A program made the translations under genes and the position numbers. Below the pieces are notes generated by a model that worked only from the letters and a program-made list of their open reading frames with translations, did no database searches and was not told the DNA's origin. From a virus: a DNA stretch of 33,396 bases. This document shows, one piece after another, positions 1 through 33,396 of this stretch; positions within the stretch are counted from its first letter, which is position 1; every line of letters starts with the position of its first letter. The stretch lies in IMG/VR virus record IMGVR_UViG_3300025711_000271, positions 1 through 33,396 of that record, one strand, 5' to 3'.

Positions 1-21
1 TACCGCACTGTAGTCGTTAAG

Positions 22-48
22 AAAAAAGCACCTTCGGGTGCTTTTTTT
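22..48. terminator. Bidirectional intrinsic terminator at the left end
   Basis: A perfect 11-bp stem (22-32 pairs with 37-47) closes on a TTCG tetraloop. It has an A-run on one side and a T-run on the other, so it can stop transcription in both directions. It lies about 95 bases beyond the stop codon of the leftward int gene and would end the C-int transcript. It would also insulate the prophage from plus-strand transcription entering from the left. Whether it is phage or host DNA cannot be decided, because the left attachment junction is not identifiable. Confidence 0.8.
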
Positions 49-133
49 ATGCCTTTCATACCGTGACTTAGAGTCATAACCCCTTATATTTCAACAACCA
101 TAGACAACTGTAAGCCACGGTAAAACGTCGAAC

Positions 134-152
134 TGTGGACATTATGTGGACA
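134..152. repeat. Paired TGTGGACA direct repeats, candidate integrase arm sites
   Basis: TGTGGACA occurs at 134-141 and again at 145-152, an 11-bp step or about one helical turn. The second copy overlaps the end of int. P2-type integrases bind short direct repeats on the arms flanking the attachment core, next to the 3' end of int, and this pair sits at that place. Their role as arm sites is inferred from position and repetition. Confidence 0.5.
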
Positions 153-1134
153 CGCTTTTTGCTTTACCCTTAAGCGGATTTAGCAAAACAGCATCATTCA
201 GAAAGTCCGGCGAAAAGTGAGCATACGCCATAGTCTGAAGTATTTTTGTATGTCCGAGTATGCGCTGTAGGGTCACGATGTTGCCCCCATTCATCATGAA
301 ATGAGTCGCAAAGGTATGGCGCAAAACATGCGTTGACTGCCCTTTAGGTAAATCCGGCTTTACCTCTTTTAGCAACAACCTAAACTCTCCGTAATCTGCA
401 TCAGGAAACATCAGCCCGGATTTTCGGGTAAAAACTTCTTCAATGATTTCAGATGAAACAGGTACGGTGCGTTTTACAGATGTTTTAGTCTGAACGAAAG
501 TTACTTTTCCATTCACCACGTGCTCAACCCTGAGCTTTTTCGCTTCCCCCCACCTGGCCCCGGTGCTTAGACATAACAACGCTAGCTTGTGGTTGTCGCC
601 GGTTAAGGCATCAAGTAGGCGATCCATTTCTGGCTTGGAAAGAAAGCCCATAGCGGTCTGACTCTCCTTAACTTTCGTTATTCCCCTGATTGGGTTCTGA
701 CCATGATAAAGTCCAGAATTCGTCAAGAAAGTAAACATTCCAGATAAAACAGCAATGTTTCGGTTAAGCGTTGAAGCCTTATTCCCGGCCATCAATCTTT
801 CAACACGATATTTTGCGATCATCTTGTTATCGATTTGGAAAACCGCAGGTGACCCCATGCAATCATCCATCCTCTTTAACTTCCCATGATAATCTACTCC
901 ATGCTCAACAGTTTTACCGTAATACTGCCACCACAGCTCAATTAACTCAGTTAGAGATCGCTTGTCTTTGGGTCTGGCAAGCCATTCTTTATCGTGGTAG
1001 TTCACCACAGTATATTTTTCGAAGGCTATAGCTTCATGTTTTTTATCAAACTTCCGCCGAATGCGTTTTCCGTTTCGTCCGGTCGGTCTTACGTCCACTT
1101 CATATCGACCATCTTCGAGCTTCTTAATCGCCAT
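142..1134 (-). CDS. int: P2-type tyrosine integrase (first integrase)
   Basis: This 330-residue site-specific recombinase should integrate and, with Cox, excise the prophage. The N-terminal arm-binding region (MAIKKLEDGR...GRNGKRIRRKFDKK) is nearly the P2 Int sequence as I recall it, and P2 Int has 337 residues. The catalytic set is complete: R194 in TGARWGEA, K217, H269 and R272 in HVLRH, H295 in ILGH, and nucleophile Y304 in MAYAHF. The start at 1134 gives the canonical N-terminus. The gene lies 66 bases downstream of repressor C on the same strand, as in P2 where both share a transcript. It reads outward toward the left end, where paired TGTGGACA repeats and a terminator follow. A second integrase of the same family lies at the opposite end of the prophage. 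Confidence 0.95.
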   Translation of the reverse strand: MAIKKLEDGRYEVDVRPTGRNGKRIRRKFDKKHEAIAFEKYTVVNYHDKEWLARPKDKRSLTELIELWWQYYGKTVEHGVDYHGKLKRMDDCMGSPAVFQIDNKMIAKYRVERLMAGNKASTLNRNIAVLSGMFTFLTNSGLYHGQNPIRGITKVKESQTAMGFLSKPEMDRLLDALTGDNHKLALLCLSTGARWGEAKKLRVEHVVNGKVTFVQTKTSVKRTVPVSSEIIEEVFTRKSGLMFPDADYGEFRLLLKEVKPDLPKGQSTHVLRHTFATHFMMNGGNIVTLQRILGHTKILQTMAYAHFSPDFLNDAVLLNPLKGKAKSVST

Positions 1135-1200
1135 AGCGATGCCCTCCGATGAAATATGAATTTTGGTAACAAATAGTGAAAATATATTTCTTATAAATCG

Positions 1201-1500
1201 TTAACCAATCTTTTGGCCGGATTGGCCGGATGTTATTCCGTCTTGCCCACAGTGTGCGAGGGCCGGCGCAATTTGGCCGGCCTCTGGCGCTGTCTGCCCT
1301 GACATAAACCACAGTGTGTATTTTCTAAACTGCGGATGGCTAAGCAACCTCATCGTAACGTCTGTTGGGGGTGTAGATCTTCCAGTTTCATAGTAGGTTA
1401 AAGTTCCATAAGGAATGCCAACTAAATCAGATAGTTCCCTTCTATTTAGTCTCTCTGACTCCCGCATGACTACTAATTTGTCTCCAAGTGAGCTTGACAC
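1201..1500 (-). CDS. C: P2 C-type immunity repressor
   Basis: The product represses the early promoter to maintain lysogeny. Starting at the GTG at 1498-1500, preceded by GGAG, it has 99 residues, exactly the length of P2 C. It matches the P2 repressor I remember along its whole length, including PYGTL.YYE.GRSTPPTDV, PQF.KYTLWFM and GQIAPALAH. The N-terminal two thirds is a lambda-repressor-like HTH fold. There is no LexA/RecA cleavage domain, so this repressor type is not directly SOS-cleavable. A longer reading frame exists upstream (TTG at 1575) but would cross the divergent promoter region, so I reject that start. The gene is divergent from cox and followed by int. Confidence 0.93.
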   Translation of the reverse strand: MSSSLGDKLVVMRESERLNRRELSDLVGIPYGTLTYYETGRSTPPTDVTMRLLSHPQFRKYTLWFMSGQTAPEAGQIAPALAHCGQDGITSGQSGQKIG

Positions 1501-1614
1501 TTCGTTTAGATCTCCATAGTATTTTTCTAGATGTTGATTAATTGAGGTTGGATATCGACAAACAATCGCAAGCAATTATAAGCCATTGATTAGATCCAAA
1601 TAGGAGATTAGCAG
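1501..1614. promoter_or_regulatory. Divergent C/cox switch region with early promoter and candidate operators
   Basis: This is the intergenic control region between repressor C (left) and cox (right). A rightward promoter for cox is visible: -35 TCGACA (1555-1560), a 16-base spacer and -10 TATAAG (1577-1582), followed by AGGAG before the cox ATG. The leftward promoter for C is less clear; candidates face the early promoter, as in P2. Three similar short sequences, TTTAGATC (1505-1512), TCTAGATG (1526-1533) and TTAGATC (1590-1596), are in the same orientation. P2 C recognises directly repeated half-sites, so these are candidate operators. Confidence 0.6.
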
Positions 1615-1890
1615 ATGAGCAATAAGATCGTAAGTGTGTCTGATGCCATTCCTTATCCGGAATTTGCCCGCCTTATTGGGAAGACTCCTGAAGCTGTAAA
1701 AGGAATGATTGAAAAGAATAAGTTGCCCATTGTTGAAATGCGCAACCCTGAAAATCCTACCGCCCGTGCAGAGTCTTGGGTTTATCTTCCAGCCTGGAAC
1801 ACCGGATTAAAATTAGCTTTTGATAGCCGCCCGAAAGAAATCCGTGACGGCTGGCTAATGTGGCTAGGTCTGGGAGAACCATCAGCATGA
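1615..1890 (+). CDS. cox: Cox excisionase and antirepressor-type regulator
   Basis: In P2, Cox represses the C promoter, acts as the directionality factor for Int-mediated excision and so commits the phage to lysis. This product has 91 residues, the same length as P2 Cox. It shares its core, including DAIPY.EFA.LIGK near the start and WVYLPAWN.GLKLA..SRPKEIRDGWLMWLGLGEP at the end. The N-terminal part (about 10-45) is a winged-helix DNA-binding fold. The ATG at 1615 has AGGAG seven bases upstream. It is the first gene of the rightward early operon and overlaps the next start by ATGA. Confidence 0.93.
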   Translation: MSNKIVSVSDAIPYPEFARLIGKTPEAVKGMIEKNKLPIVEMRNPENPTARAESWVYLPAWNTGLKLAFDSRPKEIRDGWLMWLGLGEPSA

Positions 1891-2177
1891 AACAGCAATT
1901 ATTTACTGCACCATTAAATGGACTCACTTCAGCACCGTTCTATATCGCCGCCAACTGTGTTTTGAACATTTACGACCTGCGTCAGGAGCATGGCAAAGGA
2001 GTTTGTGATCCAAATACTCCAGCTGAAATTGAGTGGGCCGCTGAACAGTTGAATTATCTCGCAGGTGTTGCAGCTTACACCGGTAGTAGGGAAGCAATTA
2101 TCTTGAGGAACGCCGCAGATATCTGGAAGCGTTACGCAAGGAAACCTGATTTATTCCCCGTAGAAATTGAGGTCTGA
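1887..2177 (+). CDS. Early phage protein of unknown function (96 residues)
   Basis: The start at 1887 overlaps the cox stop codon (ATGA) and has GGGAG ten bases upstream, so it is probably translationally coupled. I prefer it to an in-frame upstream start inside cox. The product begins MKQQLFTAPLNG and is soluble and mixed in character, without membrane segments, cysteine clusters or a clear HTH. It occupies the position of P2 orf78 or gene B (just after cox), but I do not recognise the family and see no similarity to P2 B. An early accessory or replication role is only inferred from position. Confidence 0.75.
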   Translation: MKQQLFTAPLNGLTSAPFYIAANCVLNIYDLRQEHGKGVCDPNTPAEIEWAAEQLNYLAGVAAYTGSREAIILRNAADIWKRYARKPDLFPVEIEV

Positions 2178-2179
2178 TA

Positions 2180-2386
2180 ATGACTTTGACAACACAATCC
2201 CCATCACTATCTTCATTGTTGGTTAATCACCAGCGCCCCGCAAAATGGGCAAATAACGGTTTCTGGATGGAGTTACCCGCTGGCAGAAAATATATAGCCG
2301 ATCCTAATGCTCCTCATTCCCAAGTCGTCGGTCAGGAAAGTCAGCGACCCCGATGGTTTGCCCGGTTGATGGGCATATTTTTTTGA
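2180..2386 (+). CDS. Small early protein, possibly Fil-like (68 residues)
   Basis: The ATG at 2180 follows the previous stop by two bases and has GAGG seven bases upstream. The product is 68 residues with a Ser/Leu-rich start (SLSSLLVNHQRPAKW), an aromatic and glycine-containing middle (NNGFWMELPAGRKY) and a tail PRWFARLMG. This layout resembles the short filamentation-protein (Fil) family found between cox/cII and dam in P2/186-like phages, where overexpression blocks cell division. The resemblance is from memory of the family pattern and is not strong. It sits in the right operon position for that family. Confidence 0.6.
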   Translation: MTLTTQSPSLSSLLVNHQRPAKWANNGFWMELPAGRKYIADPNAPHSQVVGQESQRPRWFARLMGIFF

Positions 2387-2397
2387 AGGTGGCAGCT

Positions 2398-2748
2398 ATG
2401 GAACAATTAAAAGAAATGTCGTTTAAGGATTTTGCTGTCGATTGGCGCATCAAGGCTAAAATTGCCAGTAATAATGCTGCACGCTTTTTTAATATGAATC
2501 CTCAACAAGATCGACATGGCGAGGAAGTTGGACGCGCAAACAGAGAGATGATTTTATTTCGCGCTAACAGGATTGCCATTCGGGAAGGAAAGGAGAAGCC
2601 TTTCCGTGAAAATGATGCTGATAAGAACTTTGTTGATTTTACCGAGGAACAAAGGATTTTTATTATCGACGCATTAAATGAAATCAGCCATTTTGGCAAA
2701 AACCTGCCGAGTTATATCCCTATAGCTGATTGTCGGATTAACATTTAA
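2398..2748 (+). CDS. Early phage protein of unknown function (116 residues)
   Basis: I place the start at ATG 2398, 11 bases after the previous stop and preceded by AAGGTGG. An upstream in-frame start inside the preceding gene is less likely. The product begins MEQLKEMSFKDFAVDW and is charged and probably helical, with a segment around residues 35-60 (DRHGEEVGRANREMILF) and a helix-rich second half (FTEEQRIFIIDALNEISHFGKNLPSYIP). No metal-binding or transmembrane motif is visible. Uncharacterised families of this size are common before dam/A in P2-like prophages; I cannot name one with confidence. Confidence 0.7.
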   Translation: MEQLKEMSFKDFAVDWRIKAKIASNNAARFFNMNPQQDRHGEEVGRANREMILFRANRIAIREGKEKPFRENDADKNFVDFTEEQRIFIIDALNEISHFGKNLPSYIPIADCRINI

Positions 2749-2815
2749 ACCATAAAAATAATTTTCGGCGTTTTATTACGTCGGGTTTTACTCATTTAAA
2801 ATTCAGGAACAGTCA

Positions 2816-2950
2816 ATGATTAATTTTTCACTTAAATATTTTCTGAAGAGCTATCCACGCCGTACATTCGCTGTTGTGATTATCCTGTGCGGCAGTATTT
2901 GGTTAGCTGCCGCATTAGCAGCACTTGCTATCATCTGGGGTCTAGTATGA
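2816..2950 (+). CDS. Small single-pass membrane protein (44 residues)
   Basis: The ATG at 2816 has AGGA seven bases upstream and opens a 44-codon frame ending at TGA 2948-2950, which overlaps the dam start (ATGA). The first 17 residues are basic and aromatic (MINFSLKYFLKSYPRRT). The remainder is one continuous hydrophobic helix rich in Ala, Ile, Leu and Trp running to the C-terminus. Good ribosome site, overlap with dam and a clean membrane protein translation support a real gene. The topology suggests a basic cytoplasmic N-terminus and an inner-membrane helix. Function is unknown. Confidence 0.7.
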   Translation: MINFSLKYFLKSYPRRTFAVVIILCGSIWLAAALAALAIIWGLV

Positions 2951-3765
2951 ACAGCGTTGTGCGCTCACCTCTAAAATGGGTAGGCGGCAAAGCCAGCGTA
3001 ATTGCCGAGTTACGCCGCCACTTGCCGGAGGGTAAGCGCCTGATCGAACCTTTTACGGGTTCTGCAACAGTGTTTTTAAATACTGATTATGACTCTTATG
3101 TGCTGGGTGATATTAATGGCGACCTGATCAATATGTTCAACATGATAAAGCGTAACCCAAGCCGATTTATTAGTTATGCGGCCAGCCTATTTAATAATGA
3201 AAATAACCCTATCTCTTATTATCAACTGCGTGATGAATTTAACAGATCAAGCAATCAGTTTTACCGTGCAGCAATATTCCTTTATTTGAACCGACACGGC
3301 TATAACGGTATGTGTCGTTATAACCAGTCGGGCGGATTTAATATCCCATTTGGGAAATATAAAAGCCCTTATTTTCCTGCTGCCGAGATCCGTACCTTTG
3401 CGGAAAAAGCAGATAAAGCCGTTTTCCTGTGCATGGATTTTAGCGAGTGCATAGAAATGGCGAATCCAGGCGATGTTATTTATTGCGACCCACCTTACAT
3501 CCCTACTTCCAAAACTGCCGATTTCACGGCCTATCACACGGCGGGTTTTTCAATCGCCGACCAGCAACGCCTGGCTGATGCGCTGCGTGTTGCTTCTGCC
3601 CGTGGTTGTCATGTCGTGGCGTCAAATAGCGACTCACCAGAAGCCTTAAAGATTTATGACGGCTTCGAAATTAATCAAATCGACGCGCGCCGCTCCATCA
3701 GTTGCAAGTCTGATGGGCGTAATAAATCGCGTGAAATCATCGCAATAATGGGGGCACCGCTATGA
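2947..3765 (+). CDS. dam: DNA adenine methyltransferase, Dam family
   Basis: The product is a 272-residue N6-adenine methyltransferase that should methylate GATC or a similar site on phage DNA using S-adenosylmethionine. The N-terminal RSPLKWVGGK (7-16) and EPFTGSA (34-40) are the SAM-binding region. DPPY (181-184, preceded by VIYC) is the catalytic motif. This is the order and length of the Dam/D12 class. I choose ATG 2947, overlapping the stop of the small membrane gene, because it places the SAM motif at the usual distance. A longer frame from 2887 would overlap that gene. It lies in the early operon ahead of A, a frequent position in P2/186 relatives, where it may protect incoming DNA or affect timing. 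Confidence 0.92.
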   Translation: MNSVVRSPLKWVGGKASVIAELRRHLPEGKRLIEPFTGSATVFLNTDYDSYVLGDINGDLINMFNMIKRNPSRFISYAASLFNNENNPISYYQLRDEFNRSSNQFYRAAIFLYLNRHGYNGMCRYNQSGGFNIPFGKYKSPYFPAAEIRTFAEKADKAVFLCMDFSECIEMANPGDVIYCDPPYIPTSKTADFTAYHTAGFSIADQQRLADALRVASARGCHVVASNSDSPEALKIYDGFEINQIDARRSISCKSDGRNKSREIIAIMGAPL

Positions 3766-4148
3766 ATGTGAATCTCGCAACACTGGTTGCTAGTGAGATT
3801 TGTGATTTTTGTGCTGGCCTTGGGTGCATCGGGGAGCCTAAAGACCACGAGGCAATTCAGGCGGAACTGATGCGCCGCATATTACCTTTAGTTGGGTCCG
3901 TCGTAATTTTAGATGCGACTGAGCTTGTTGAAGGGCAAACAGTAGCGACAGATGCAGCCTGGTTGTATGGGGAGTTTGGCAACGAAGATGAGGCACAAGC
4001 ATGGGAAGCCTTACTCTCAGGAGAGCTTTCTAAGCCGGAAGTAATTAACTGCTGGTCATGTGAAGAAATGCTGACTATCGGCGAACTATCTGAAAATGAT
4101 GGATTTTGCTCTCACTGCAATAATGAAATTGAATTAAATGATGAATGA
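3762..4148 (+). CDS. Early protein with C-terminal four-cysteine zinc-finger-like motif
   Basis: This 128-residue acidic protein starts at ATG 3762, overlapping the dam stop, and ends by overlapping the start of A. Its C-terminus has two CxxC pairs (CWSC ... CSHC, about residues 98-119), as expected for a small structural zinc ribbon. Another CxxC with a nearby Cys lies near residues 14-21 (CDFCAGLGC). The middle is acidic and helical. Zinc-ribbon proteins are common just ahead of the replication gene in P2-like phages, but this is not a recognisable DksA/TraR protein, and I cannot assign a role. The tight overlaps suggest coupled translation with dam and A. Confidence 0.75.
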   Translation: MNVNLATLVASEICDFCAGLGCIGEPKDHEAIQAELMRRILPLVGSVVILDATELVEGQTVATDAAWLYGEFGNEDEAQAWEALLSGELSKPEVINCWSCEEMLTIGELSENDGFCSHCNNEIELNDE

Positions 4149-6456
4149 TAATCGGGGGCGCAAAGCCCCCACGCCGCCGCCCCCATTCCGTGTAACTAAG
4201 CCTGCTGCACCTGAGTGGGCTTACTCATGGAATGCAGAACGCGAAGCAGTGCGCCCTGCTGAAATCCCAACCTATGCAGAAAAACATGCATCTGACCTTC
4301 AGATGTATGCGCAGCTTGCAGAAACTGCTCGCGCCTATGACATGCTCGACCAGCAGCCGGATTTTATTCAGCGCGTAGTCATGGGGACCATCACCAGCCT
4401 GGAACGCAGCAACGGCGCTAAACGGGCAAATATGTACTTAACGAAAAACTTCGTTGAGCGCATATTTCCACGTCTACACCTCGTTAATTCTCAATATCGC
4501 CTTGAAAAGCAGACCGCAGACAACATCAATTTTCACTGGATGTACAACAAGCTGCCAGATCTGAGTACGGAAAAAATTGACGCCTTGGCTGAGGATATTG
4601 CGCAGTTTATTGCTCTCGAATTGAGCAAGGTCAGTACTGAAGCCGAAGAGCACAATCTTTCTGATTTTAAAACCGCCGCCGCGATGCTCAAGCGCGCGAA
4701 GTCTATTGCCGGTGACGTTGGGCAACCCTTGCCTGTAAAGGGCAAAAAGAGGTTATCCCTTGATGATATGACGCCCATTATTGCTCGCCTGCTCTCCCCT
4801 GATTGGTGGAAAAGAAAGCTACGCCGTCAGGCCGCAATCTGGCGCGAACATCTGTATATCGCGTTTGGTCAGGTGAGCAAGAAAACCAGCCCATACGCCA
4901 GCCGCAAGACCATTCTTGAATGGCGTGAGCAAAAGCGCCGCACGCGTGAGTTTTTGAAATCAATGGAGCTGGAAGACGAGGAAGGTAACCGCATAAGCCT
5001 GATCGATAAATATGATGCCAGCGTATCAAATCCGGCGATCCGTCGCTGTGAGTTAATGACCCGCATTCGTGGCTTTGAAAATATCTGTGAAGAGCTGGGC
5101 TACGCCGGTGAGTTTTATACCATCACGGCTCCTTCCCGCTACCACGCCACCAATGTTCATGGGCACCGTAACCCGAAGTGGGACGGCACTAGCCCATCTG
5201 GAACACAAAAATATCTCTGCAATATATGGGCGAAGATACGCGCCAAGCTGGCCCGCAAAGAAATTAGTATTTTTGGCATACGTGTTGCGGAGCCGCACCA
5301 GGATGGGACACCCCACTGGCACATGCTGATGTTTATGAAACCTGAGCATGTCGACACTGTTCGACAAGTCATAGCTGATTACGCTATGGACGAAGACGCC
5401 TATGAATTACGAAATGACAGAGCACGCAAGGCACGTTTCCATGTTGAACCCATCGACCCAGACAAGGGCAGCGCCACGGGTTATATCGCAAAATACATTT
5501 CTAAGAACATCGACGGCTTCGCGTTGGACGATGAAACAGACGACGAGTCAGGAAAGCCACTGCGGGAAATGGCAGCATCCGTTTCTGCCTGGGCGGCACG
5601 CTGGCGTATTCGTCAGTTTCAGTTTATTGGGGGTGCGCCGGTCACGGTTTATCGCGAACTTCGCAAGCTGGAAGACAGTGAAACAGCGCTGGGCTTATCT
5701 GTCGAGTTTGCCACCGCGCATTTCGCTGCTTATTGGAGCGATTGGGCTGGTTACACCAACGCACAGGGCGGGCCGTTCGTGAAGCGCTCCGCACTGGCCG
5801 TCAAGAACTGGTATGAGTCCGGCGAAGAGCTATCAGCCTTCGGCGAGGAAGTGGTGAGAATTCGCGGCGTTTATGACACACAGGTCGGGAGCGACTGCCC
5901 GATCATCACCCGATTGGTTGAGTGGAAGATAGTGCCCAAGCGTGCCGTTGATTTGGCCGTTGATTTGAGCGGCGCGAACGCGACGCCTTGGAGTTCTGTC
6001 AATAACTGTACGGGACCGTTTGACAGGCCGCAGGATGATAGAATTGGAAGTGATTTTGAAATAACCGACCTTCAAAGTATGACCCCCAAAGAGCGGCGTA
6101 AGCTGCTAAGAACAGTCAGGGATGATGAGACGAAGAAAAAAGAGGAAAGACGCACCAGAGCGTGGCACAACCACTTCAGGCTAATTTTTAAACCGGAGGT
6201 TGTAGAGAAAATGCGTGAAGCTTCGAGGGTTGCATACGGGATTGAGTTAAGTCTCGGAGAAATAAAATATTTGATTGACGGCAGGGCTATGCACTGCGGC
6301 GATGAATCCTTTAGAGGATACGCCGACGGGGAAATTTATTCAGTTCCAGCCGTACCGGAGCCACTGAAACGATTTGAAAAATTAAGGCAAAAGTACGGAC
6401 CGAAAGCTGAAACTGAGCAGCAGGAATTAGTCAGAAAGCACCTTGAGAAAATGTGA
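4138..6456 (+). CDS. A: Replication initiation endonuclease gpA (HUH superfamily)
   Basis: This is the rolling-circle replication initiator: it nicks the phage origin, stays covalently attached to the 5' end and rejoins strands. It has 772 residues against 761 in P2. The HUH metal motif is at GTPHWHMLMF (His393 and His395). The paired catalytic tyrosines are in GYIAKYISKNIDG (Tyr449 and Tyr453), matching the P2 pair Tyr450/Tyr454. In P2 the origin lies inside gene A, so the origin here is probably internal too, but I could not locate it. Two adjacent ATGs (4138, 4141) overlap the preceding gene; the ribosome site is weak, so coupling is likely. The gene ends at the boundary with the AT-rich cargo genes. 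Confidence 0.95.
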   Translation: MMNDNRGRKAPTPPPPFRVTKPAAPEWAYSWNAEREAVRPAEIPTYAEKHASDLQMYAQLAETARAYDMLDQQPDFIQRVVMGTITSLERSNGAKRANMYLTKNFVERIFPRLHLVNSQYRLEKQTADNINFHWMYNKLPDLSTEKIDALAEDIAQFIALELSKVSTEAEEHNLSDFKTAAAMLKRAKSIAGDVGQPLPVKGKKRLSLDDMTPIIARLLSPDWWKRKLRRQAAIWREHLYIAFGQVSKKTSPYASRKTILEWREQKRRTREFLKSMELEDEEGNRISLIDKYDASVSNPAIRRCELMTRIRGFENICEELGYAGEFYTITAPSRYHATNVHGHRNPKWDGTSPSGTQKYLCNIWAKIRAKLARKEISIFGIRVAEPHQDGTPHWHMLMFMKPEHVDTVRQVIADYAMDEDAYELRNDRARKARFHVEPIDPDKGSATGYIAKYISKNIDGFALDDETDDESGKPLREMAASVSAWAARWRIRQFQFIGGAPVTVYRELRKLEDSETALGLSVEFATAHFAAYWSDWAGYTNAQGGPFVKRSALAVKNWYESGEELSAFGEEVVRIRGVYDTQVGSDCPIITRLVEWKIVPKRAVDLAVDLSGANATPWSSVNNCTGPFDRPQDDRIGSDFEITDLQSMTPKERRKLLRTVRDDETKKKEERRTRAWHNHFRLIFKPEVVEKMREASRVAYGIELSLGEIKYLIDGRAMHCGDESFRGYADGEIYSVPAVPEPLKRFEKLRQKYGPKAETEQQELVRKHLEKM

Positions 6457-6504
6457 AGCTTATTAAGGTTAAAAATATGGCACCAAACATTTCTCATTAC
6501 TTAG

Positions 6505-6564
6505 TTGACAAAACACAGAAATTGCACCAACATCTCGATTGACAAAATCAATTTTTTGCACCAA
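6505..6564 (+). repeat. Two 26-bp direct repeats, candidate operators of the cargo pair
   Basis: Bases 6505-6530 and 6539-6564 are near-copies, each starting TTGACAAAA and ending TTGCACCAA, separated by 8 bases (34-bp period). A third partial copy (GCACCAA) is at 6480-6486. The terminal TTGCACCAA is a short inverted repeat (TTG-3-CAA). A TATTAT -10-like element is at 6572-6577, 24 bases before the ATG of the first cargo gene. Repeats over the promoter of an operon that encodes an Xre DNA-binding protein suggest autoregulation by that protein. The -35 for this -10 is poor, so the exact promoter is uncertain. Confidence 0.6.
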
Positions 6565-6600
6565 AACTTACTATTATATAGCCAATCGAGAGAGCTTATT

Positions 6601-7200
6601 ATGCCGAATACGAGTTTACCTTGGGAGTTTCATCAGCAATTAAGCGCTGAGCGACTAGCAATTATTGCTGAGAATCTTTTAAAGGTTCTTGATGCCACCC
6701 ACGAGCAACTTTCAACGCCGCTGGATGATAATTACACCCGTGGAACTTGTACTTTTGGCAGGCAGCGCCAATCTCTGATTCAACTTTGTATGGAAGGCGG
6801 CCAAGAGTGGTTAACTTTAGTTAATCCTGGAATGGATCTAACCTTCAGTATTGATACAATCCCTATCCGTTTTTTTGCAGATGACCCAGAACATCCTAGA
6901 AAACCAGGCTTTTTCAGACGAAATAGCGTGGACCAGTTGTGGGCACCTGAAGTCACAATCCCCACCCTTTGGCGATTTGTTGTTGAAAAGCCAGAGTTCG
7001 AAGGCGAAGGAGCTCAAATCCATCTAGTAGGCTACAACCCTATGGGAGAAGTCTTATCCAAGTGGACATATGGTGAGGATAAGATTGCCGTGCTGCATTC
7101 AGTAGACAATACCCCGCCAGCACCAGTGCACGTGGAATTGGATGAAATTAGCCCATCCGTGCCTGATAAAGCTAGCGATAAAAAACGCAATAACGAATAA
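6601..7200 (+). CDS. Unknown cargo protein paired with the Xre-ImmA/IrrE gene
   Basis: I choose ATG 6601 (MPNTSLPWEFHQQL, 199 residues), just downstream of GAGAG and the promoter-like repeats. The frame extends upstream to 6505, but that would translate through the repeats. The protein is soluble, with no signal or membrane segment. Distinct parts are an N-terminal helical region, a central DDNYTRG.C.FGRQRQSL element, a segment with FSIDTIPIRFFADDPEHPRKP, a WRF..EKP..EG region, and a charged, proline-containing disordered tail (after about residue 165). I do not recognise the family. It is 9 bases ahead of the Xre-peptidase gene, and the pair sits in the A-to-cos interval where P2 carries tin and old. 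A toxin or defence effector role is an inference from that partnership. Confidence 0.8.
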   Translation: MPNTSLPWEFHQQLSAERLAIIAENLLKVLDATHEQLSTPLDDNYTRGTCTFGRQRQSLIQLCMEGGQEWLTLVNPGMDLTFSIDTIPIRFFADDPEHPRKPGFFRRNSVDQLWAPEVTIPTLWRFVVEKPEFEGEGAQIHLVGYNPMGEVLSKWTYGEDKIAVLHSVDNTPPAPVHVELDEISPSVPDKASDKKRNNE

Positions 7201-7209
7201 AGGTGAAAA

Positions 7210-8325
7210 GTGTTCAACGGTTCTAATTTACGGTTGGCTCGTCTGTATCACGAGCTTTCACTTGAGCAGGTGGCTGAGCGTGTCAATAAAACTCGCCAGT
7301 ACATACAGCGGCTGGAGACCGGCATTGCTGTACCCACTATTGAGCTTGCTAATGAATTGGCTACCGTTTTAAAAGTTGCCCCTGTGTTTTTTGACACGGA
7401 TGAACAATCTCCTTTGAATGAGGAGATTGTTCACTTCCGTAAACGCAGTTCAACAAGAGTGGTAACTAAATTAGCAACTCTCGCAAAAGCGGAACTTTAC
7501 AGACGCCTTATAGAAGTTTTCGAGCAGAATCTCAATCTCCCCCCGGTTAGATTCGAACAGATTGATGCACACACCCAGGATGAAATTGAGAAAGCTGCGG
7601 AGAAATGTAGGATTGATTGGGGCTTAGGACTTGGCCCAATAGATAATATGACTCGTGTTGCTGAGAAAATGGGCGCGTTCGTTACATCTTTCGATTCGGT
7701 TTGTGACGAAGTTGATGCTCTTTCTGTTCCTCTTGAAAGGCCTTTTATCGTCAGGAACACTGCCAAAAAATCTCCGTGTCGACAACGTTTTGACATCGCA
7801 CATGAGGTTGGCCATCTTGTTCTTCATGGTGGAATATCAACTGGGGATCGGGCTACAGAATCAGAAGCCAACCGTTTTGCTTCTGCAATTTTATTACCTC
7901 GCAGCGCAATGGCTAAATATTTCCCTCGTCCTATTGGCGGGCGCATCGATTGGCAAGGATTAAGCGAATTTAAGCTAACTTGGAAAGTTAGCAAAGCAGC
8001 AATTATTTACCGTGCTCATCAATTATCGCTTCTCAGCGATGCACAGTACAAAACTGCTTTTTTTGGCCTTAAGAGGAAAGGCGAAGCAATTGAGGAAAAA
8101 GAAGACTATTTGATTGCTCATGAAAAACCAGAGTTATTTCACCGAGCAATGCGGGTTTTGTTAAAAGATCTAAATATGGATGCCGAAAGTCTGGCAAAAC
8201 GGCTTAAAATATCGGTCCCTATGCTTTTAGAACTTGCCAATGATCCAGATCTCCATAATAGCAGTCTTGACTGTGCCTCAGGTAACGTAGTTTCCCTCCT
8301 CGCTTACCGTAACATGACAGCTTAG
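7210..8325 (+). CDS. Xre HTH and ImmA/IrrE-type metallopeptidase fusion protein
   Basis: This 371-residue protein has two recognisable domains. Residues 5-60 are an Xre/HTH_3 DNA-binding domain (LRLARLYHELSLEQVAERV, then TRQYIQRLETG). Residues about 140-240 are an ImmA/IrrE (COG2856) zinc peptidase domain with HEVGH at 198-202 and a SEANRFA.A.LLP segment that supplies the third ligand (Glu219). A C-terminal region (305-345) contains a second HTH-like helix pair (LAKRLKISVPMLLELA). The start is GTG 7210, with AAGG upstream and 9 bases after the previous stop. Proteins of this layout act as regulators or antitoxins, and the peptidase may cleave a repressor or partner on a signal. The intact zinc motif argues for activity. 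A terminator follows directly, so the two genes form one unit. Confidence 0.88.
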   Translation: MFNGSNLRLARLYHELSLEQVAERVNKTRQYIQRLETGIAVPTIELANELATVLKVAPVFFDTDEQSPLNEEIVHFRKRSSTRVVTKLATLAKAELYRRLIEVFEQNLNLPPVRFEQIDAHTQDEIEKAAEKCRIDWGLGLGPIDNMTRVAEKMGAFVTSFDSVCDEVDALSVPLERPFIVRNTAKKSPCRQRFDIAHEVGHLVLHGGISTGDRATESEANRFASAILLPRSAMAKYFPRPIGGRIDWQGLSEFKLTWKVSKAAIIYRAHQLSLLSDAQYKTAFFGLKRKGEAIEEKEDYLIAHEKPELFHRAMRVLLKDLNMDAESLAKRLKISVPMLLELANDPDLHNSSLDCASGNVVSLLAYRNMTA

Positions 8326-8339
8326 CTTTAAAAATTAGT

Positions 8340-8362
8340 CCCTGCTCCGGCAGGGTTTTTTT
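8340..8362 (+). terminator. Intrinsic terminator of the cargo operon
   Basis: CCCTGC pairs with GCAGGG around a TCCG loop, followed by seven T residues. It is 15 bases after the stop codon of the Xre-peptidase gene and closes the two-gene unit before the cos region. Confidence 0.9.
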
Positions 8363-8662
8363 ATCATATTGACTAGTTAAATATTCCAGTTTTGCCAACT
8401 TAAAATCGCTGCAAAAAAATGCATTGAAATGCACAGTTTAGATCCCACCTTCTGGAACCTTCCAGGCCACACGGGGCGCGGGATTGGCCGGACTGCAAAA
8501 GTGCAAAAAAAAGCACCATTTTTGTGCGCGGGCGAGGCGGGGGAGCAGTCGCGCGCTGAGAGGGGGTACATAGGGCATTCCTCCAAAATCGTTTTTTTGG
8601 CCGAAAATCGGCTCAATTTGAGGTTTTGAGCGGTGCGCCCATGCCTTGCGTAGGAAATGAGA
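8363..8662. other. Non-coding packaging region around cos
   Basis: About 300 bases between the cargo terminator and the Q terminator have no convincing gene. Short frames crossing this stretch read through the cos site, have unusual composition and lack good ribosome sites. The region contains A/T-runs alternating with GC-rich blocks and short inverted repeats near 8494-8525 (GCAC/GTGC), as expected for terminase binding next to the cohesive-end site. Confidence 0.7.
8531..8549. other. cos: cos site (cohesive-end packaging site)
   Basis: The sequence GGCGAGGCGGGGGAGCAGT is very close to the 19-base cohesive end of P2 as I remember it (GGCGAGGCGGGG followed by AAGCAC). It is at the P2 position, between the cargo interval and the 3' end of portal gene Q. 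Terminase subunits gpP and gpM would cut here to package monomeric circles. The exact nick positions are taken by analogy with P2. Confidence 0.85.
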
Positions 8663-8691
8663 AAGCCCCGCAGCATGGCGCTGAGGGGCTT
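8663..8691 (-). terminator. Terminator of the leftward P-Q operon
   Basis: Read on the minus strand, AAGCCCC-T-CAGC pairs with GCTG-C-GGGGCTT in an 11-bp stem with one mismatch, followed by TTTCTC. It lies 36 bases past the stop codon of Q and should end the P-Q transcript before cos. Confidence 0.75.
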
Positions 8692-8726
8692 GTAGAAGGG
8701 GTGAGGTTCGGGTTATTGAAGGCGGA

Positions 8727-9791
8727 TCAGTTGCTGTTTTCTGCCAAGGCGTAAGGGGTAAAGCTGAACACCTCAACGCCCATCCAGTCATTCAGGTCCT
8801 TCAGCACTTCCTGAATGGGGTACAGTTCATTGATAGCAAACACCTTGGCCGCCTTTTCAATATCACCTAGCCCCCCGGCGTTGTTGGGTATCACACCCAT
8901 GAGCTGCGGAGGGACACGATGCACGGCCAGCATATCGTCACGGGTCGCATCCTTAATCCCGGTAAATTCATCCTTTGCGGCTATCTGGCTAAATGGCATG
9001 ATCTGCAAGCCGTCTTTCTTGCCCCCTGCGGCATAGACAAAAAGATTTTTAAACGCTCCGCCTCCCCTCGCATCTTTCAGTGAGCGCTTAAGTTTCTCGA
9101 CGTCACTACTGTTGGCGACGGGGTCAGTGAGGTAAACAATCACCCCGGCATGACTGCCGTTGATGTAATAATTTCGGCGAAACAGCGTGGCCTCACCGTT
9201 TAGTAAAATGGACTGCATGGCGGACATATATTCCGGTGTGCCGTAAATCTCCTGATGAATGCTGGGGCTGCGCAGGTGGTAAACCTTGCCGGGCGGAAAT
9301 GCGTAGTCTTCGTTGTAGTAGGTCACGAACCAGTACTGATCCAGGTCCTCGCCGCGCCGCGTGTACTTCGCCAGGGTATGCTTCAGCTTCAACGGCTCGC
9401 CTAGCCGGTTTTCCCTGAGTTCAAGATATGCATTCCCGAACACCAGATAATCCATGATGAACGCGCTGGCGTCTTGCCTGGACAACAGCGGATGCGGTTT
9501 GTAGCAGGACATAATCACATTACGCTTAAAAATCAGCGGCGACTGATGATGCACGGCCCCTTCCAGCATACGCGCTAGGCCATAAGGGCTAATCGGCGGC
9601 TCATACCAGCGCCCATTTTTAGCGCACTCCATGCAGTCCTGCAGATCACGTTGGTCCATGATGGGGGTAGAGTCACCGAAGCTAAAAGACTGGATTTCAT
9701 CAATCGGTTGCTGCACTGAGTCGCCGGATTGCAGGGTATCACCTGCGGCATTGAGACTGACTTTATGGGTGGTTTTACGGCGGCGGCTCAT
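8727..9791 (-). CDS. Q: Portal protein gpQ
   Basis: The product forms the dodecameric portal at the capsid vertex through which DNA is packaged and to which the tail connector attaches. It has 354 residues against 344 in P2. Typical P2-family segments include the N-terminal FSFGDSTPIMDQ, YEPPISP.GLA, HHQSPL.FK, and the C-terminal HRVPPQLMG..P.NAGG.GD..KA. It starts at 9791, three bases from the stop of P on the same strand, so the two are co-transcribed leftward from the P/O intergenic promoter. No defects are seen. Confidence 0.95.
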   Translation of the reverse strand: MSRRRKTTHKVSLNAAGDTLQSGDSVQQPIDEIQSFSFGDSTPIMDQRDLQDCMECAKNGRWYEPPISPYGLARMLEGAVHHQSPLIFKRNVIMSCYKPHPLLSRQDASAFIMDYLVFGNAYLELRENRLGEPLKLKHTLAKYTRRGEDLDQYWFVTYYNEDYAFPPGKVYHLRSPSIHQEIYGTPEYMSAMQSILLNGEATLFRRNYYINGSHAGVIVYLTDPVANSSDVEKLKRSLKDARGGGAFKNLFVYAAGGKKDGLQIMPFSQIAAKDEFTGIKDATRDDMLAVHRVPPQLMGVIPNNAGGLGDIEKAAKVFAINELYPIQEVLKDLNDWMGVEVFSFTPYALAENSN

Positions 9792-29851: not shown

Positions 29852-31002
29852 TAACCAATCTGAGTCTGCCCGCAGGGGCAGAAATAACCCCCGACTTTAT
29901 GATTAACCTCGACCAGAAAGACATTACACAAAATATCCGGTCGCGGCTTATTTCCTTAAGCCTGACAGACAATCGCGGCTTTGAGGCTGACCAGTTAGAC
30001 ATTGAACTTGACGACGCAGACGGGCTGCTGGCAATGCCAGAACGCGGCGCAGTGCTGTCTATTTTCCTTGGCTGGAAAGGCTCGGCGCTGATTGGCAAGG
30101 GGAGTTTTACGGTCGATGAAGTGGAGCACCACGGCGCGCCGGATACGCTGACTATTCGCGCCCGCAGCGCAGATTTCAGGGGTAGCTTGAATTCACGCCG
30201 TGCGGTGTCCTATCACGATACCACCCTGGGCGATGTGGTTAAGCAAGTGGCCGAGCGCAACAATCTCACCGCCATGCTGGCCGACGGTTTGGCCGATATT
30301 GCGATCCCACATCTCGACCAGACGCAGGAGACAGACGCGAAATTTATCACGCGCCTCGCCACGCTCAACGGCGCGGTAGCCGCCGTCAAGCAGGGGAAAC
30401 TTTTGTTTATCAAGCCAGGGAGCGGCAAGACGGCCAGCGGTAAAGCTATCCCGCAGATGACCATTACCCGCAAAGACGGCGACCGGCACAGTTTCAGTAT
30501 TGCTGACCGAGGCGCATACACCGGCGTAACGGCAAGCTGGCTGCACACCAAAGACCCTGCTCCTAAAAAGGTGAAGCTGCAGCGTAAGAAAAAAGAGCAG
30601 CACCTGCGCGCCTTGCAGCATCCCAGCGCCAAAGCCACCGTGAAGAAAGTCACGAAAACGCCGGAGGAAAAAGAGGGCGAGTATATGGCCGGTACCGAGG
30701 ATAACGTCTTTGCCTTGACTACGGTCTATGCGACAAAGGCAGCTGCGATGCGCGCCGCCGCGTCAAAGTGGAGCAAGTTACAACGCGGCGTTGCCGAGTT
30801 CTCGCTAACTCTGGCGATGGGGCGTGCCGATATCTATCCCGAAACACCTGTGGCGGTAAGTGGGTTTAAAGCGGTGATAGATGCGCAGCCGTGGATCATT
30901 AGCAAGGTTCAACATAGCTTGAGCAATAGCGGCTTTATCACTACGCTGAATTTAGAGGTATTGTTGTCAGATGTGAGTTATGAAGAGGCAGAATTAGATT
31001 GA
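29848..31002 (+). CDS. D: Tail hub protein gpD
   Basis: This 384-residue protein (387 in P2) is the late-control/hub protein D, a gp27-like baseplate hub. Characteristic segments are LSLTDNRGFEADQLDIELDDADG, FLGWKG, VDEVEH.GAPD.LTIRARSADFRG and E.PV.V.GFK..ID...WII..V.H. It overlaps the U stop (ATGA) and is the last structural gene before ogr. Confidence 0.95.
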   Translation: MITNLSLPAGAEITPDFMINLDQKDITQNIRSRLISLSLTDNRGFEADQLDIELDDADGLLAMPERGAVLSIFLGWKGSALIGKGSFTVDEVEHHGAPDTLTIRARSADFRGSLNSRRAVSYHDTTLGDVVKQVAERNNLTAMLADGLADIAIPHLDQTQETDAKFITRLATLNGAVAAVKQGKLLFIKPGSGKTASGKAIPQMTITRKDGDRHSFSIADRGAYTGVTASWLHTKDPAPKKVKLQRKKKEQHLRALQHPSAKATVKKVTKTPEEKEGEYMAGTEDNVFALTTVYATKAAAMRAAASKWSKLQRGVAEFSLTLAMGRADIYPETPVAVSGFKAVIDAQPWIISKVQHSLSNSGFITTLNLEVLLSDVSYEEAELD

Positions 31003-31003
31003 G

Positions 31004-31041
31004 TTTGTTTTTGCAAGTTTATTCTTGCATAATCAAACAAA
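31004..31041 (+). promoter_or_regulatory. Probable ogr promoter within an inverted repeat
   Basis: A -35 TTGTTT (31005-31010) and -10 CATAAT (31028-31033) are 17 bases apart, giving a start near 31040, about 46 bases before ogr. The same stretch is a nested inverted repeat: TTTGTTT with AAACAAA and GCAAG with CTTGC. It could be an operator or a weak stem after D. The promoter reading is by motif only. Confidence 0.5.
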
Positions 31042-31085
31042 GGCTCATTTAATTCTCAAAATTCAAGCTACAGGCGGGTAAAAAG

Positions 31086-31304
31086 ATGATGAACTGTCCT
31101 ATGTGCCAATATGCTGCACATGCCAGATCCAGCCGTTATCTCAGCACAGAAACCAAAGAGCGCTATCACCAGTGCACAAATATTAACTGTGGCTGCACGT
31201 TCAAATCTCTTGAGTCCATTACCGATATCATCGTAAAGCCAGCGCTAATTAACCCTGTCCCGCCGCACCCTGGCCGAGGCAATCAGGGCAATCTCTGGAT
31301 CTAG
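31086..31304 (+). CDS. ogr: Late transcription activator Ogr (zinc finger)
   Basis: This 72-residue protein has the same length as P2 Ogr. It has four cysteines for zinc (CPMC at residues 4-7, then CTNINC at 30-35) and shares CP.CQ.AAHAR.SRY.....KERYHQC.N.NC and the end IVKP...NPV.PHP. It binds TGT-N12-ACA sites and contacts the RNA polymerase alpha subunit to switch on late promoters. ATG 31086 is followed by a second ATG. It is followed directly by a terminator. Confidence 0.95.
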   Translation: MMNCPMCQYAAHARSSRYLSTETKERYHQCTNINCGCTFKSLESITDIIVKPALINPVPPHPGRGNQGNLWI

Positions 31305-31311
31305 TCCCCTG

Positions 31312-31335
31312 CCCCGCTGATGCGGGGTTTGTTTT
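31312..31335 (+). terminator. Intrinsic terminator after ogr
   Basis: CCCCGC pairs with GCGGGG around TGAT, followed by TTTGTTTT. It lies eight bases after the ogr stop and closes the FI-to-ogr transcription unit, separating it from the second integrase. Confidence 0.88.
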
Positions 31336-31383
31336 ATCTGCTAGGTATTGGCATCCAACTAATCGCCAGTTTGCATTTTACTT

Positions 31384-31434
31384 GGCTAACTATTCACAAA
31401 TCGGCTAATCATATCCACAAAAGGCTAAAAGGCT
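31384..31434 (+). repeat. GGCTAA repeats in the ogr to second-integrase gap
   Basis: GGCTAA occurs at 31384-31389, 31403-31408 and 31423-31428, with a partial GGCT at 31431-31434. The step is 19-20 bases, nearly two helical turns. Two copies are preceded by CACAAA, giving a longer similar unit. The 240 bases of AT-rich DNA around it hold no gene. Phased short repeats next to ogr, where P2 has its attachment region, may be integrase arm or Cox/IHF-type sites. Confidence 0.5.
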
Positions 31435-31569
31435 GCTATGAGCGAGCTAACAAGTTGATAGTTTAGAATATTTGTCAAGTTTCCCGTCAAAGCGATCAAA
31501 TGATTTATGTAAAAATCATCAAATTACATGCCCTCCGCAACCAGGTGTATAAAATCCTTAAAACAAACA

Positions 31570-31598
31570 TTGAATACTGTTTTTATATACAGTATTTT
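31570..31598 (+). promoter_or_regulatory. LexA (SOS) box inside the promoter of the second integrase
   Basis: TACTGTTTTTATATACAGTA (31575-31594) has perfect CTGT-N8-ACAG ends and, by my count, 18 of 20 positions of the E. coli LexA consensus. It lies between -35 TTGAAT (31570-31575) and -10 TATTTT (31593-31598), spaced by 17 bases, so LexA binding would block the promoter. Predicted transcription starts near 31605, about 20 bases ahead of the integrase ATG. Confidence 0.85.
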
Positions 31599-31624
31599 GC
31601 GTCTTTTGATTTCAAAAGCGCAGA

Positions 31625-32668
31625 ATGATTATGGGCCCTAAAAAGCTTGCGGACGGAAAATGGCAGTGTGATTTCTACCTCAATGGCCGTGGTTCTAAGC
31701 GGGTTCGTAAAACCTTTATAACCCGTGGGGAAGCCATCAATTACGAAAAATTTATGATGGCTGAAATTGAGTCTAAACCCTGGCTGGGCGAAAAAGACGA
31801 CCAACGCCACCTCAGTGAGCTAATCGACCTCTGGTATAAACTGCACGGCTGTTCACTCAATGACAAAAAAGGCCGCCTAGGCAAACTGCATATCATTTGT
31901 CGAGGTCTAGGCGATCCTGTTGCCAATACCTTGACGGCAAAAGATTGGGCGCACTATCGCGATCGCCGACTGCGTGGCGCGATTGAAAATGGCTATAAGA
32001 CCAGCACAAAGTCCCTCAAAGTCTCGATTGCGACCGTAAACTGTGAACATGCTTTTATACGTGCAGTGTTTAATGAGTTAGTCCGGCTTGGGGAGATCAG
32101 CTACCCTAATCCGCTAAAAAACGTCCGTGAGTTCGATGTGCCAGAAAAAGAGATGGCCTGGCTGACCGATGAACAGTTAACCCGCCTGATGCGCGCCTGT
32201 CGCGGCCACGCAAACCCCGACCTCACTTTAATCGTTAAGATATGCCTGAGCACCGGTTCACGCTGGAATGAAGCAGCCAAGCTTAAAGCCTCGCAGCTTT
32301 CGCCAGGGAAAATAACCTTTATCAAAACCAAAGGTAAGAAAAACCGCACAGTACCCATTAGCCAGGCACTCTACGATGAGTTGATAGCTCGTGAAGGCAA
32401 ACCCTTTGATGAATGCTACCGGCAATTTTACCGCGTGCTAAAGATTGCAAAAATACAATTACCAGAGGGTCAGATGAGCCATGTATTACGGCACACCTTC
32501 GCCAGTCATTTTATGATGTCAGGGGGAAATATAATTGTATTGCAGCGTATTCTCGGGCACTCAGATATTCGCGTAACAATGCGTTATGCACATTTCGCCC
32601 CAGACCATTTAGAGGACGCAATTAATTTTAATCCATTGCAAAGGCTGAATTCGCTGACTACAAATTGA
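31625..32668 (+). CDS. Second P2-type tyrosine integrase, SOS-regulated
   Basis: This 347-residue recombinase is of the same family as the left integrase. Its arm-binding N-terminus reads GPKKLADGKWQCDFYLNGRGSKRVRKTF, and its catalytic set is complete: Arg213 (GSRWNEA), Lys236, His286 and Arg289 (HVLRH), His312 (ILGH) and nucleophile Tyr321 (MRYAHF). Initiation could be at 31625 or at the ATG two codons later (31631), which aligns better with the first integrase. It reads rightward, away from the phage and toward the sdsR terminator, about 90 bases on. In this family att lies beyond the 3' end of int, so its target is probably the sdsR 3' end. It could be a remnant of an older element or a second functional integrase. 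The LexA box upstream is unusual. Confidence 0.93.
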   Translation: MIMGPKKLADGKWQCDFYLNGRGSKRVRKTFITRGEAINYEKFMMAEIESKPWLGEKDDQRHLSELIDLWYKLHGCSLNDKKGRLGKLHIICRGLGDPVANTLTAKDWAHYRDRRLRGAIENGYKTSTKSLKVSIATVNCEHAFIRAVFNELVRLGEISYPNPLKNVREFDVPEKEMAWLTDEQLTRLMRACRGHANPDLTLIVKICLSTGSRWNEAAKLKASQLSPGKITFIKTKGKKNRTVPISQALYDELIAREGKPFDECYRQFYRVLKIAKIQLPEGQMSHVLRHTFASHFMMSGGNIIVLQRILGHSDIRVTMRYAHFAPDHLEDAINFNPLQRLNSLTTN

Positions 32669-32673
32669 CTACG

Positions 32674-32707
32674 AGGGGTCTACACAGGGGGTACAGGGTA
32701 GAACAGG
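32674..32707. repeat. G-rich short repeats just past the second integrase
   Basis: Three related units follow the stop codon: AGGGGTCTACAC (32674-32685), AGGGGGTACAGG (32686-32697) and AGGGTAGAACAGG (32695-32707). They lie where paired TGTGGACA repeats lie beside the first integrase, between int and the attachment point. This suggests arm-type binding sites for the second integrase. The repeats are imperfect. Confidence 0.4.
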
Positions 32708-32761
32708 ACTACTCATAAGTGACTGATTTTAATGTAAGTGGCTGTTTTAAAAACCCCACAA

Positions 32762-32866
32762 AAAAAAGACCGAATACGATTCCTATATTCGGTCTAGGGA
32801 AATGGCTCTTGGGAGAGAGCCGTGCGCTAAAAGTTGGCATTGATGCAGGCGGTTAAGCCATACAAC
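32762..32866 (-). ncRNA. sdsR: SdsR (RyeB) sigma-S-dependent small RNA
   Basis: On the minus strand this region matches the E. coli/Salmonella SdsR RNA I remember through CCAACTTTTAGCGCACGG, CTCTCTCCCAAGAGCC and the terminator GACCGAATA...TATTCGGTC followed by Ts. A sigma-S-type -10 (CTACTCT, minus strand at 32877-32871) gives a start near 32866 and a length of about 105 nt. SdsR is an abundant stationary-phase, Hfq-bound regulator. The plus-strand antisense partner RyeA/SraC normally starts beyond the SdsR 3' end. That flank is now integrase-proximal DNA, so its native promoter is probably displaced. yebY lies on the 5' side, as in E. coli. Confidence 0.92.
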
Positions 32867-33026
32867 TTAAAGAGTAGTCGAGCTTAAATGCTTTTCCAGC
32901 GAGTTTGGCGACCTGTGATAATTACTTAACGAAATGAGTTACGTTTTGTGACAACATTCGCAAAACCACCCATTAACTGTGTGGAATTCAAGCGAGAAGG
33001 GGGTTTTTAGACAGGGGGATATTAAA
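32867..33026. other. sdsR-yebY intergenic region
   Basis: About 160 bases of AT-rich host DNA hold no convincing gene. They include the sdsR promoter (-10 at 32871-32877). In E. coli the antisense RNA RyeA/SraC extends into this side. I see no obvious plus-strand promoter or terminator for it here. Confidence 0.6.
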
Positions 33027-33048
33027 GAGGCCGACGTGGATCAGCCTC
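33027..33048 (-). terminator. Probable terminator of yebY
   Basis: On the minus strand GAGGC pairs with GCCTC around a 12-base loop, followed by TTTAAT. It lies 12 bases beyond the yebY stop codon. The stem is short and the T-run modest, so it is a weak terminator. Confidence 0.5.
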
Positions 33049-33060
33049 AGGAAGCTCAAC

Positions 33061-33396
33061 TTAACACAGGGTTCCAGCGCGCTCGATAAACGGGGCAAGA
33101 CTCATCTTGTGGCCGGGATTTTTGGGGTCATCCAGCTGAATAATGCTCAGCGGCTGTGCACTCACCTTCCCTTCTTTCACCCACTGCTCTGCTACATCAT
33201 TCAGCGGATACTGCGCCAGCGTGCTGTCATTAATCACGAACAGGGCTTTGCCCGGTCGGCATTGCAGCATCACTTCTTCACGGGTGAACGCCCATGCCTT
33301 GCCATATTCCAGACGGCTCACGGTAACAACTTGCGGCGCTGCGAAACAGCTGGCAGACAGGGTGAGCAACAGCCCCCCAAGTAGCGTTTTTTTCAT
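33061..33396 (-). CDS. yebY: YebY, periplasmic DUF2511 protein
   Basis: This is a complete 111-residue host gene whose start codon is the last three bases of the window. The N-terminus is a signal peptide ([19 protein letters not shown], cleavage before APQVV), so the product should be periplasmic. The mature part matches E. coli YebY: VVTVSR.E.GK..AF.REEVML.CRPG.AL.VIN..TL.QYPLND, and [16 protein letters not shown]. Two Cys (about 47 and 111) could form a disulfide. In E. coli yebY precedes yebZ and yobA, a membrane/copper-related cluster; its exact role is not established. It marks the right chromosomal flank. Confidence 0.93.

Follow-up and report, generated by a model that had tools for sequence, protein, structure and literature searches.

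A predicted RosmerTA module between genes A and Q of a P2-like phage and the beta sliding clamp as a candidate target of its toxin family

Results

Organization of the Locus

The analysed stretch of DNA (hereafter, the window) is 33,396 bases long and is the virus record of a P2-like phage. Its replication gene A (gpA profile match 1.3e-115 at 4138–6456) ends at position 6456, and a two-gene operon is located between this gene and a cos-like sequence with portal gene Q (8727–9791 bp, minus strand). A first-pass annotation of the same DNA had described a self-contained unit between A and cos at 6457–8362. These borders are correct; gene A ends at 6456, a T tract ends at 8362, and all parts of the unit were found, namely a 199-aa ORF, a 9-nt gap (7201–7209), a protein with an Xre-type HTH and an HEVGH motif, and a terminator-like stem. 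The features are as follows:

6505–6530, plus strand: putative operator/promoter copy 1, with TTGACA (-35-like), TTGCAC starting 17 bp on and then CAACAT at the -10 place
6539–6564, plus strand: putative operator copy 2, with TTGACA and TTGCAC starting 17 bp on; 34 bp after copy 1
6601–7200, plus strand: rmrT, 199-aa predicted toxin of the RosmerTA module; ATG start; PADLOC PDLC03929 (2.2e-89, residues 1–198); PHROG 5786, of unknown function
6928–6942, plus strand: VDQLW, RmrT residues 110–114, a degenerate site of a putative clamp-binding motif, within the model region 101–114 with pLDDT <50
7210–8325, plus strand: rmrA, 371-aa predicted antitoxin/regulator with Xre HTH and M78 (ImmA/IrrE-like) domains; GTG start; PADLOC PDLC03943 (1.2e-195, residues 1–369); Pfam Peptidase_M78 PF06114 (1.5e-16) and HTH_3 PF01381 (2.4e-12)
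7801–7815, plus strand: HEVGH zinc-binding motif of RmrA, residues 198–202; H198, E199 and H202 invariant in 19 aligned rows
8340–8362, plus strand: intrinsic terminator-like stem-loop, with a stem (8340–8355) and a run of seven T that ends at 8362

The terminator scan of the window gave three such sites versus 2.5 in shuffled sequences, a count that is not significant by itself. The sequence GGCGAGGCGGGGGAG at 8531–8545, which we take to resemble P2 cos, was matched within two mismatches in 10 of 100 shuffles. A search of the region 6300–8800 against Rfam (E up to 1) revealed no RNA element. An inverted repeat at approximately 7403–7431 inside rmrA folds well (-20.6 kcal/mol); it is not kept whole in the seven relatives shown and was set aside.

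The GC content is 0.41–0.46 over 6301–8400 versus 0.50–0.56 in most of gene A and 0.52–0.56 in Q and P, and the unit is indeed AT-richer than A and Q, as had been noticed at first pass. Both ends of the window (1–3300 and 30,901–33,300; GC about 0.40–0.50) are AT-rich too, and thus low GC alone is no marker of cargo. Comparison of rmrT and rmrA with seven relatives gave differences of 0.53–0.63 at third codon positions and 0.08–0.22 at second positions; both genes are under purifying selection.

Assignment to the RosmerTA Family

The name RosmerTA had been put forward in the first-pass annotation, and the PADLOC profiles proved it right for both genes; the two proteins are almost certainly members of the RosmerTA (RmrT/RmrA) family. 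The original RosmerTA paper is reportedly that of Millman and colleagues, 2022. RmrT had no family match in Pfam or NCBIfam, and its PHROG match is to a group of unknown function. A structural or lysogeny-related phage protein, the identity that would have spoken against the initial interpretation, was rejected on these grounds. The nearest NCBIfam model for RmrA was antitox_spr1629 (NF052239; 1.5e-48, 165.8 bits), and this score is below the curated cut-off of 335 bits, so RmrA is not the spr1629 equivalog.

Distribution and Genomic Context

Copies of the window (L001–L003) were left out throughout, and two fragments (L006 and L030) were dropped, which reduced the set of RmrT representatives from 46 to 44. 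The RmrT of the window had no match among 50,697 phage records at E 1e-5, and one divergent RmrT used as a query gave a single match there, a Salmonella contig. Matches to RmrT were found in 18 plasmid records, and DNA matches were found in 33 of 5,426 E. coli genomes, one of them covering at least 80% of the query. The single-protein scan yielded four genome contigs and the profile scan 47 viral contigs, 32 of which (L033–L064) showed 31% identity; many of these share one toxin. In whole-genome draws that each included the seed genome, RmrT was present in 7/394 (order), 2/369 (class) and 6/398 (phylum) genomes. Two families of genomes, chosen since one member had a match, gave 8/248 and 2/233.

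RmrA adjoins RmrT in 60 of the 62 external loci (L004–L065), the exceptions being a toxin fragment (L030) and a locus at a contig end (L065). The two genes therefore co-occur elsewhere, as the idea of a two-gene module requires. The same was true of all seven loci of the order draw, seed genome included, and of 89 of 95 loci overall, window included; L075, L081, L084 and L086 are the remaining loci without RmrA. These four (L081, L084 and L086 are Acetobacteraceae plasmids) carry divergent RmrT-like genes without good upstream boxes and form one clade. They retain the clamp-motif site considered below, and L075 and L084 have a second strict motif near the C-terminus. Such RmrT-like proteins with the motif but without RmrA may be non-toxins.

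An A–Q slot like that of the window was found in 13 of 61 external loci examined for context (L004, L013–L015, L017, L019, L020, L022–L025, L027 and L028; two of them repeat the toxin of another). Other pairs were located in lambdoid-like neighbourhoods (L016 and L018) or next to Tn7-like genes (L007). The pair is mobile. Several loci have features of their own. The Acinetobacter plasmid L007 carries the pair beside TnsD- and TnsE-like genes and an anti-phage-associated DUF499 gene, and the E. coli P2-like prophage L014 (4570–5849) has both ParM-type partition genes and RosmerTA in the A–Q slot. The Providencia plasmid L006 (3992–4591), downstream of a gpA homologue, has a broken toxin frame and an intact antitoxin, as toxin decay would predict. 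In L015, RmrA is split beside an intact toxin, and this record has many other frameshifts.

The A–Q interval has been documented as a hotspot of defence genes, with 18,150 E. coli loci showing 1,650 arrangements, and several systems there were tested and found to be defensive (PMC9122126); the initial statement that P2-like prophages carry defence genes at such sites agrees with this report. The word Rosmer is absent from the main text of that paper, and RosmerTA genes have been reported in Acinetobacter baumannii prophages (PMC12421847). The module adds a further RosmerTA to a defence slot that was already known, and it probably operates as a toxin-antitoxin defence module. The first-pass interpretation as toxin-antitoxin or defence cargo is supported; toxicity, protection and a role of HEVGH are predicted from the sequence.

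Upstream Boxes and the RmrA Regulator

The repeat-bearing upstream region pointed out earlier is real. The pattern TTGACAAA-N9-TTGCACCA occurs without mismatches at 6505–6529 and 6539–6563; with two mismatches allowed, 0.05 matches are expected in the window, and two matches were found in none of 100 shuffles. Within the window, the pattern is present only upstream of rmrT, where the successive starts of TTGACA, TTGCAC, TTGACA and TTGCAC are 17 bp apart. The promoter consensus scan did not list the first TTGACA, and the -10 candidate CAACAT is identical to TATAAT in only three of six letters. The first TTGACA, followed after 17 bp by this weak -10-like hexamer, may be considered a candidate promoter, so that binding of RmrA to the boxes would shut off its own operon.

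The four-box score was at least 21/24 in every external-locus row shown except L008 (14), where the two box pairs start 32 bp apart, a distance outside those scored. A two-box score of at least 10/12 was obtained for 33 of 44 representatives, namely 33 of the 40 with RmrA and none of the four without it (scores of 6, 7, 7 and 6). The association of boxes with RmrA had a Fisher p of 0.0024, with rows that share ancestry and are not independent. Seven of the 40 loci with RmrA had no good box pair. In addition, the fragment L030, outside the 44, kept the boxes (21/24) without RmrA, which counts against the operator argument. The conserved boxes upstream of rmrT suggest autorepression by RmrA.

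An alignment of RmrA (19 rows at 40–84% identity to the window) contained 114 invariant columns, including H198, E199 and H202. Modeling using AlphaFold2 led to a model with a pLDDT of 79.4. Its HTH part matched ImmR (Z 11.2), DdrO (10.5) and CapH (10.3), which are small all-helical domains for which a Z near 11 is suggestive only, and its peptidase part was similar to CapP (Z 10.6, rmsd 3.2, 158 aligned residues). In CapH/CapP and DdrO/IrrE, the peptidase cleaves the repressor upon DNA damage, and CapP is stimulated by single-stranded DNA (both as cited in PMC10233336). Cleavage of the HTH was proposed for Rosmer-like antitoxins by the authors of PMC10440598.

A Clamp-Binding Motif Site in RmrT

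The literature found does not name a target for the RmrT toxin family. RipA, the pneumococcal Rosmer toxin, interacts with DnaN, and suppressor/resistance mutations cluster in the DnaN hydrophobic pocket; its authors note that DnaN as a mere intermediate target remains possible (PMC12795458). Within one open library, the RipAB paper was the only one found on Rosmer and the sliding clamp.

The RmrT proteins were scanned for the strict motif Q-phi-x-[LM]-[FL] or Q-phi-x-[LM]-x-[FL], which follows the published definition (PMC11139829) but was extended to accept Met and Pro at position 2. Of the 44 representatives, 17 have the motif at the same alignment position (12 of the 17 without Met at position 2). 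All carriers are among the 29 representatives less than 50% identical to the window; their median identity is 21%, and 14 different strings were observed: QMSMF, QMELF, QMSLL, QASLL (3), QLGLF, QIPLL, QLALL, QLTLKL, QLALAL (2), QLSLAL, QMALAL, QMAMAF, QLSLAF and QLSLL. Thus, both the 5- and 6-residue published forms are present. Only three strict matches occur elsewhere in the 44 proteins. When the residues of each RmrT were shuffled (2000 runs), the mean was 0.21 and the maximum was 3, a calculation that ignores kinship; on the tree, the motif label requires six changes. The string at the site is NLELF in L007 from Acinetobacter and in the viral contig L033, and NLDMF in L031.

The RmrT of the window does not contain the strict motif, as VDQLW has neither the Gln nor an aliphatic second residue, and none of the 15 close representatives contains it (0/15). 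The site of the window clade has the form [VAM]-D-x-L-[FW] in 17 of 17 rows, L090 and L091 included. The motif has decayed in this clade to no more than its Leu-Phe/Trp anchor; the Leu-Phe part of clamp ligands is able to bind alone (PMC11139829). The site falls within a low-confidence loop, as read from the model of the window RmrT alone.

RmrA served as a control. The 40 RmrA proteins contained 27 strict matches, and 15 of these are a single site inherited within the window clade. A match can therefore be conserved for structural reasons, without implying clamp binding. Diversity is much greater among the RmrT carriers of the motif. This site (residues 271–275; QLSLL or QLGLL in the window and its clade) is present in 15/15 close RmrAs and is perhaps a matter of helix packing.

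Taken together with the RipA analogy, the site makes the sliding clamp an evenly balanced proposition as the target of the RmrT family. For the RmrT of the window itself, the proposition is weaker than for the family.

Partner Proteins of Other RmrA Homologues

Five partner proteins of other RmrAs were read, and four of them contained motif look-alikes at residues ~127–146. The partner from Macrococcus has a strict match (QLVLNL), while QFDLF (Ligilactobacillus, with EISLF in a relative from a Lacticaseibacillus phage), QADIF (Streptomyces) and NYDLF (Vibrio) are look-alikes by eye and not strict. The Streptomyces partner was not named RmrT by PADLOC, and the single strict match of the Acinetobacter partner is in another place, at residue 74. 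Viral scans with other Rosmer toxins revealed no relatives, and tblastn searches with them gave 2, 3 and 8 records. L103 was dropped as a partner locus: its only upstream ORF shown starts like a secreted protein and is an unlikely toxin.

It is somewhat doubtful, though conceivable, that the proteins of the RmrT family, and perhaps also Rosmer toxins of several families that look unrelated, act as clamp inhibitors whose motif loop would compete with the polymerase, with clades differing in their fit to the consensus. If this is true, RosmerTA defence would commonly work through replication arrest by clamp capture, and the RmrT-like genes that lack RmrA would encode clamp binders in other service.

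Structure of RmrT and Alternative Functions

The AlphaFold2 model of RmrT (21 rows; pLDDT 70.7) consists of two helices and six strands, and residues 101–114 and 162–199 have a pLDDT below 50. The best Foldseek match in the PDB was the restriction endonuclease 3ndh (prob 0.47, E 0.32). A second fold comparison gave NaeI (Z 5.6, rmsd 4.1, 129 aligned residues), 3ndh (Z 4.8) and EcoRV entries (Z 3.6–4.7). These weak matches leave room for a RosmerTA defence module in which RmrT would be a DNA- or RNA-cutting nuclease folded like a restriction enzyme. However, no PDB match had E <0.001, all Z values were below 8 and inositol-monophosphatase-like rows (Z 5.1–5.3) were tied with the restriction-enzyme-like ones. 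In the alignment of 13 RmrT members, invariance is limited to P7, one Leu, G144 and W155, and no acidic, lysine or catalytic residue is invariant. We consider a nuclease unlikely. A search of the viral fold library with the model gave nothing below E 0.001. The best match of the RmrT profile among PDB sequences (E 0.67), to influenza haemagglutinin chains, was taken as chance.

The pair could also simply be an addiction or maintenance module that serves the phage and has no specific part in defence against other phages. Partition genes adjoin the pair in L014, pairs are also carried by plasmids (one of which, L004, has gpA and portal genes), and two RosmerTAs from Streptococcus thermophilus did not protect against most of the phages tested (PMC12322248). 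Nevertheless, the pair occupies a slot whose tested systems proved defensive (PMC9122126), and RosmerTAs can protect, though narrowly (PMC10440598, PMC12322248), which leaves pure maintenance a low probability.

RmrT-D5 of the Gordonia phage Kita, the toxin of a pair active against two phages of one collection, depolarises and permeabilises membranes (PMC10440598). This speaks against the clamp reading and would allow a defence module with a membrane-depolarising toxin. In RmrT, however, no candidate membrane helix was found (best 19-residue hydropathy 0.88 for the window protein; 1.6 is reached by only one of 44 representatives). According to its authors, the Kita toxin has no similarity to other protein families (PMC10440598), and it was compared with RmrT by description. 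Membrane action of RmrT is thus quite improbable. An ordinary ImmR/ImmA-like prophage regulator pair controlling phage genes, suggested by the resemblance of RmrA to ImmR, DdrO and CapH/CapP parts, is very improbable given an operon of its own with a terminator between A and Q, a box pattern confined to that operon within the window and pairs in P2-like, lambdoid and Tn7-like neighbourhoods.

Discussion

Proposed Mechanism

This analysis established family membership, pairing, conserved boxes, an intact peptidase motif and the clamp-motif site in relatives. For repression, trigger, toxicity and target, we infer the following scheme. The module would be defence cargo in the A–Q slot of a P2-like phage. 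The HTH of RmrA would bind the TTGACA/TTGCAC boxes and repress the operon, and RmrT would be kept harmless. A signal that reflects infection or damaged replication (by analogy with CapP, single-stranded DNA) could then switch on the M78 peptidase or inactivate RmrA in another way, which would derepress the operon and free RmrT. RmrT would block DNA replication, most likely through docking of its loop in the peptide pocket of the beta clamp. The cell would stop before the competing phage matures. We consider the chances of the whole chain, from RosmerTA cargo through RmrA repression and the trigger to replication arrest by RmrT read broadly, to be about equal either way.

With this proposal, the target of RmrT becomes directly testable. 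If clamp capture is true, it would join the action of the pneumococcal Rosmer toxin on DnaN and RosmerTA phage defence into one mechanism, and it would supply natural protein ligands for a pocket that has been studied as a target of antibiotics.

Comparison with Known Systems

Like the P2 tin/old cargo and other content of the A–Q hotspot, the module occupies the slot between gpA and gpQ, beside cos (PMC9122126), but its genes differ from tin and old. CapH/CapP, DdrO/IrrE and ImmR/ImmA likewise combine an HTH repressor with an M78 metallopeptidase; in those systems, the parts are separate proteins, whereas RmrA unites them in a single polypeptide encoded next to a toxin. The pneumococcal RipAB pair (Spr1630/Spr1629) is a Rosmer-family toxin-antitoxin system with an Xre-ImmA antitoxin (PMC12795458), and RmrA matches the antitox_spr1629 model, although under its cut-off; the RipA toxin and RmrT are likened by description. 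The closest likeness is with RosmerTA itself: both proteins match the PADLOC profiles over nearly their full length, and the arrangement is the same toxin-first two-gene operon with an Xre-M78 antitoxin (PMC10440598). The difference is that other RmrTs are different proteins, and the putative operator boxes and clamp-motif site of the RmrT/RmrA family are described here from sequence.
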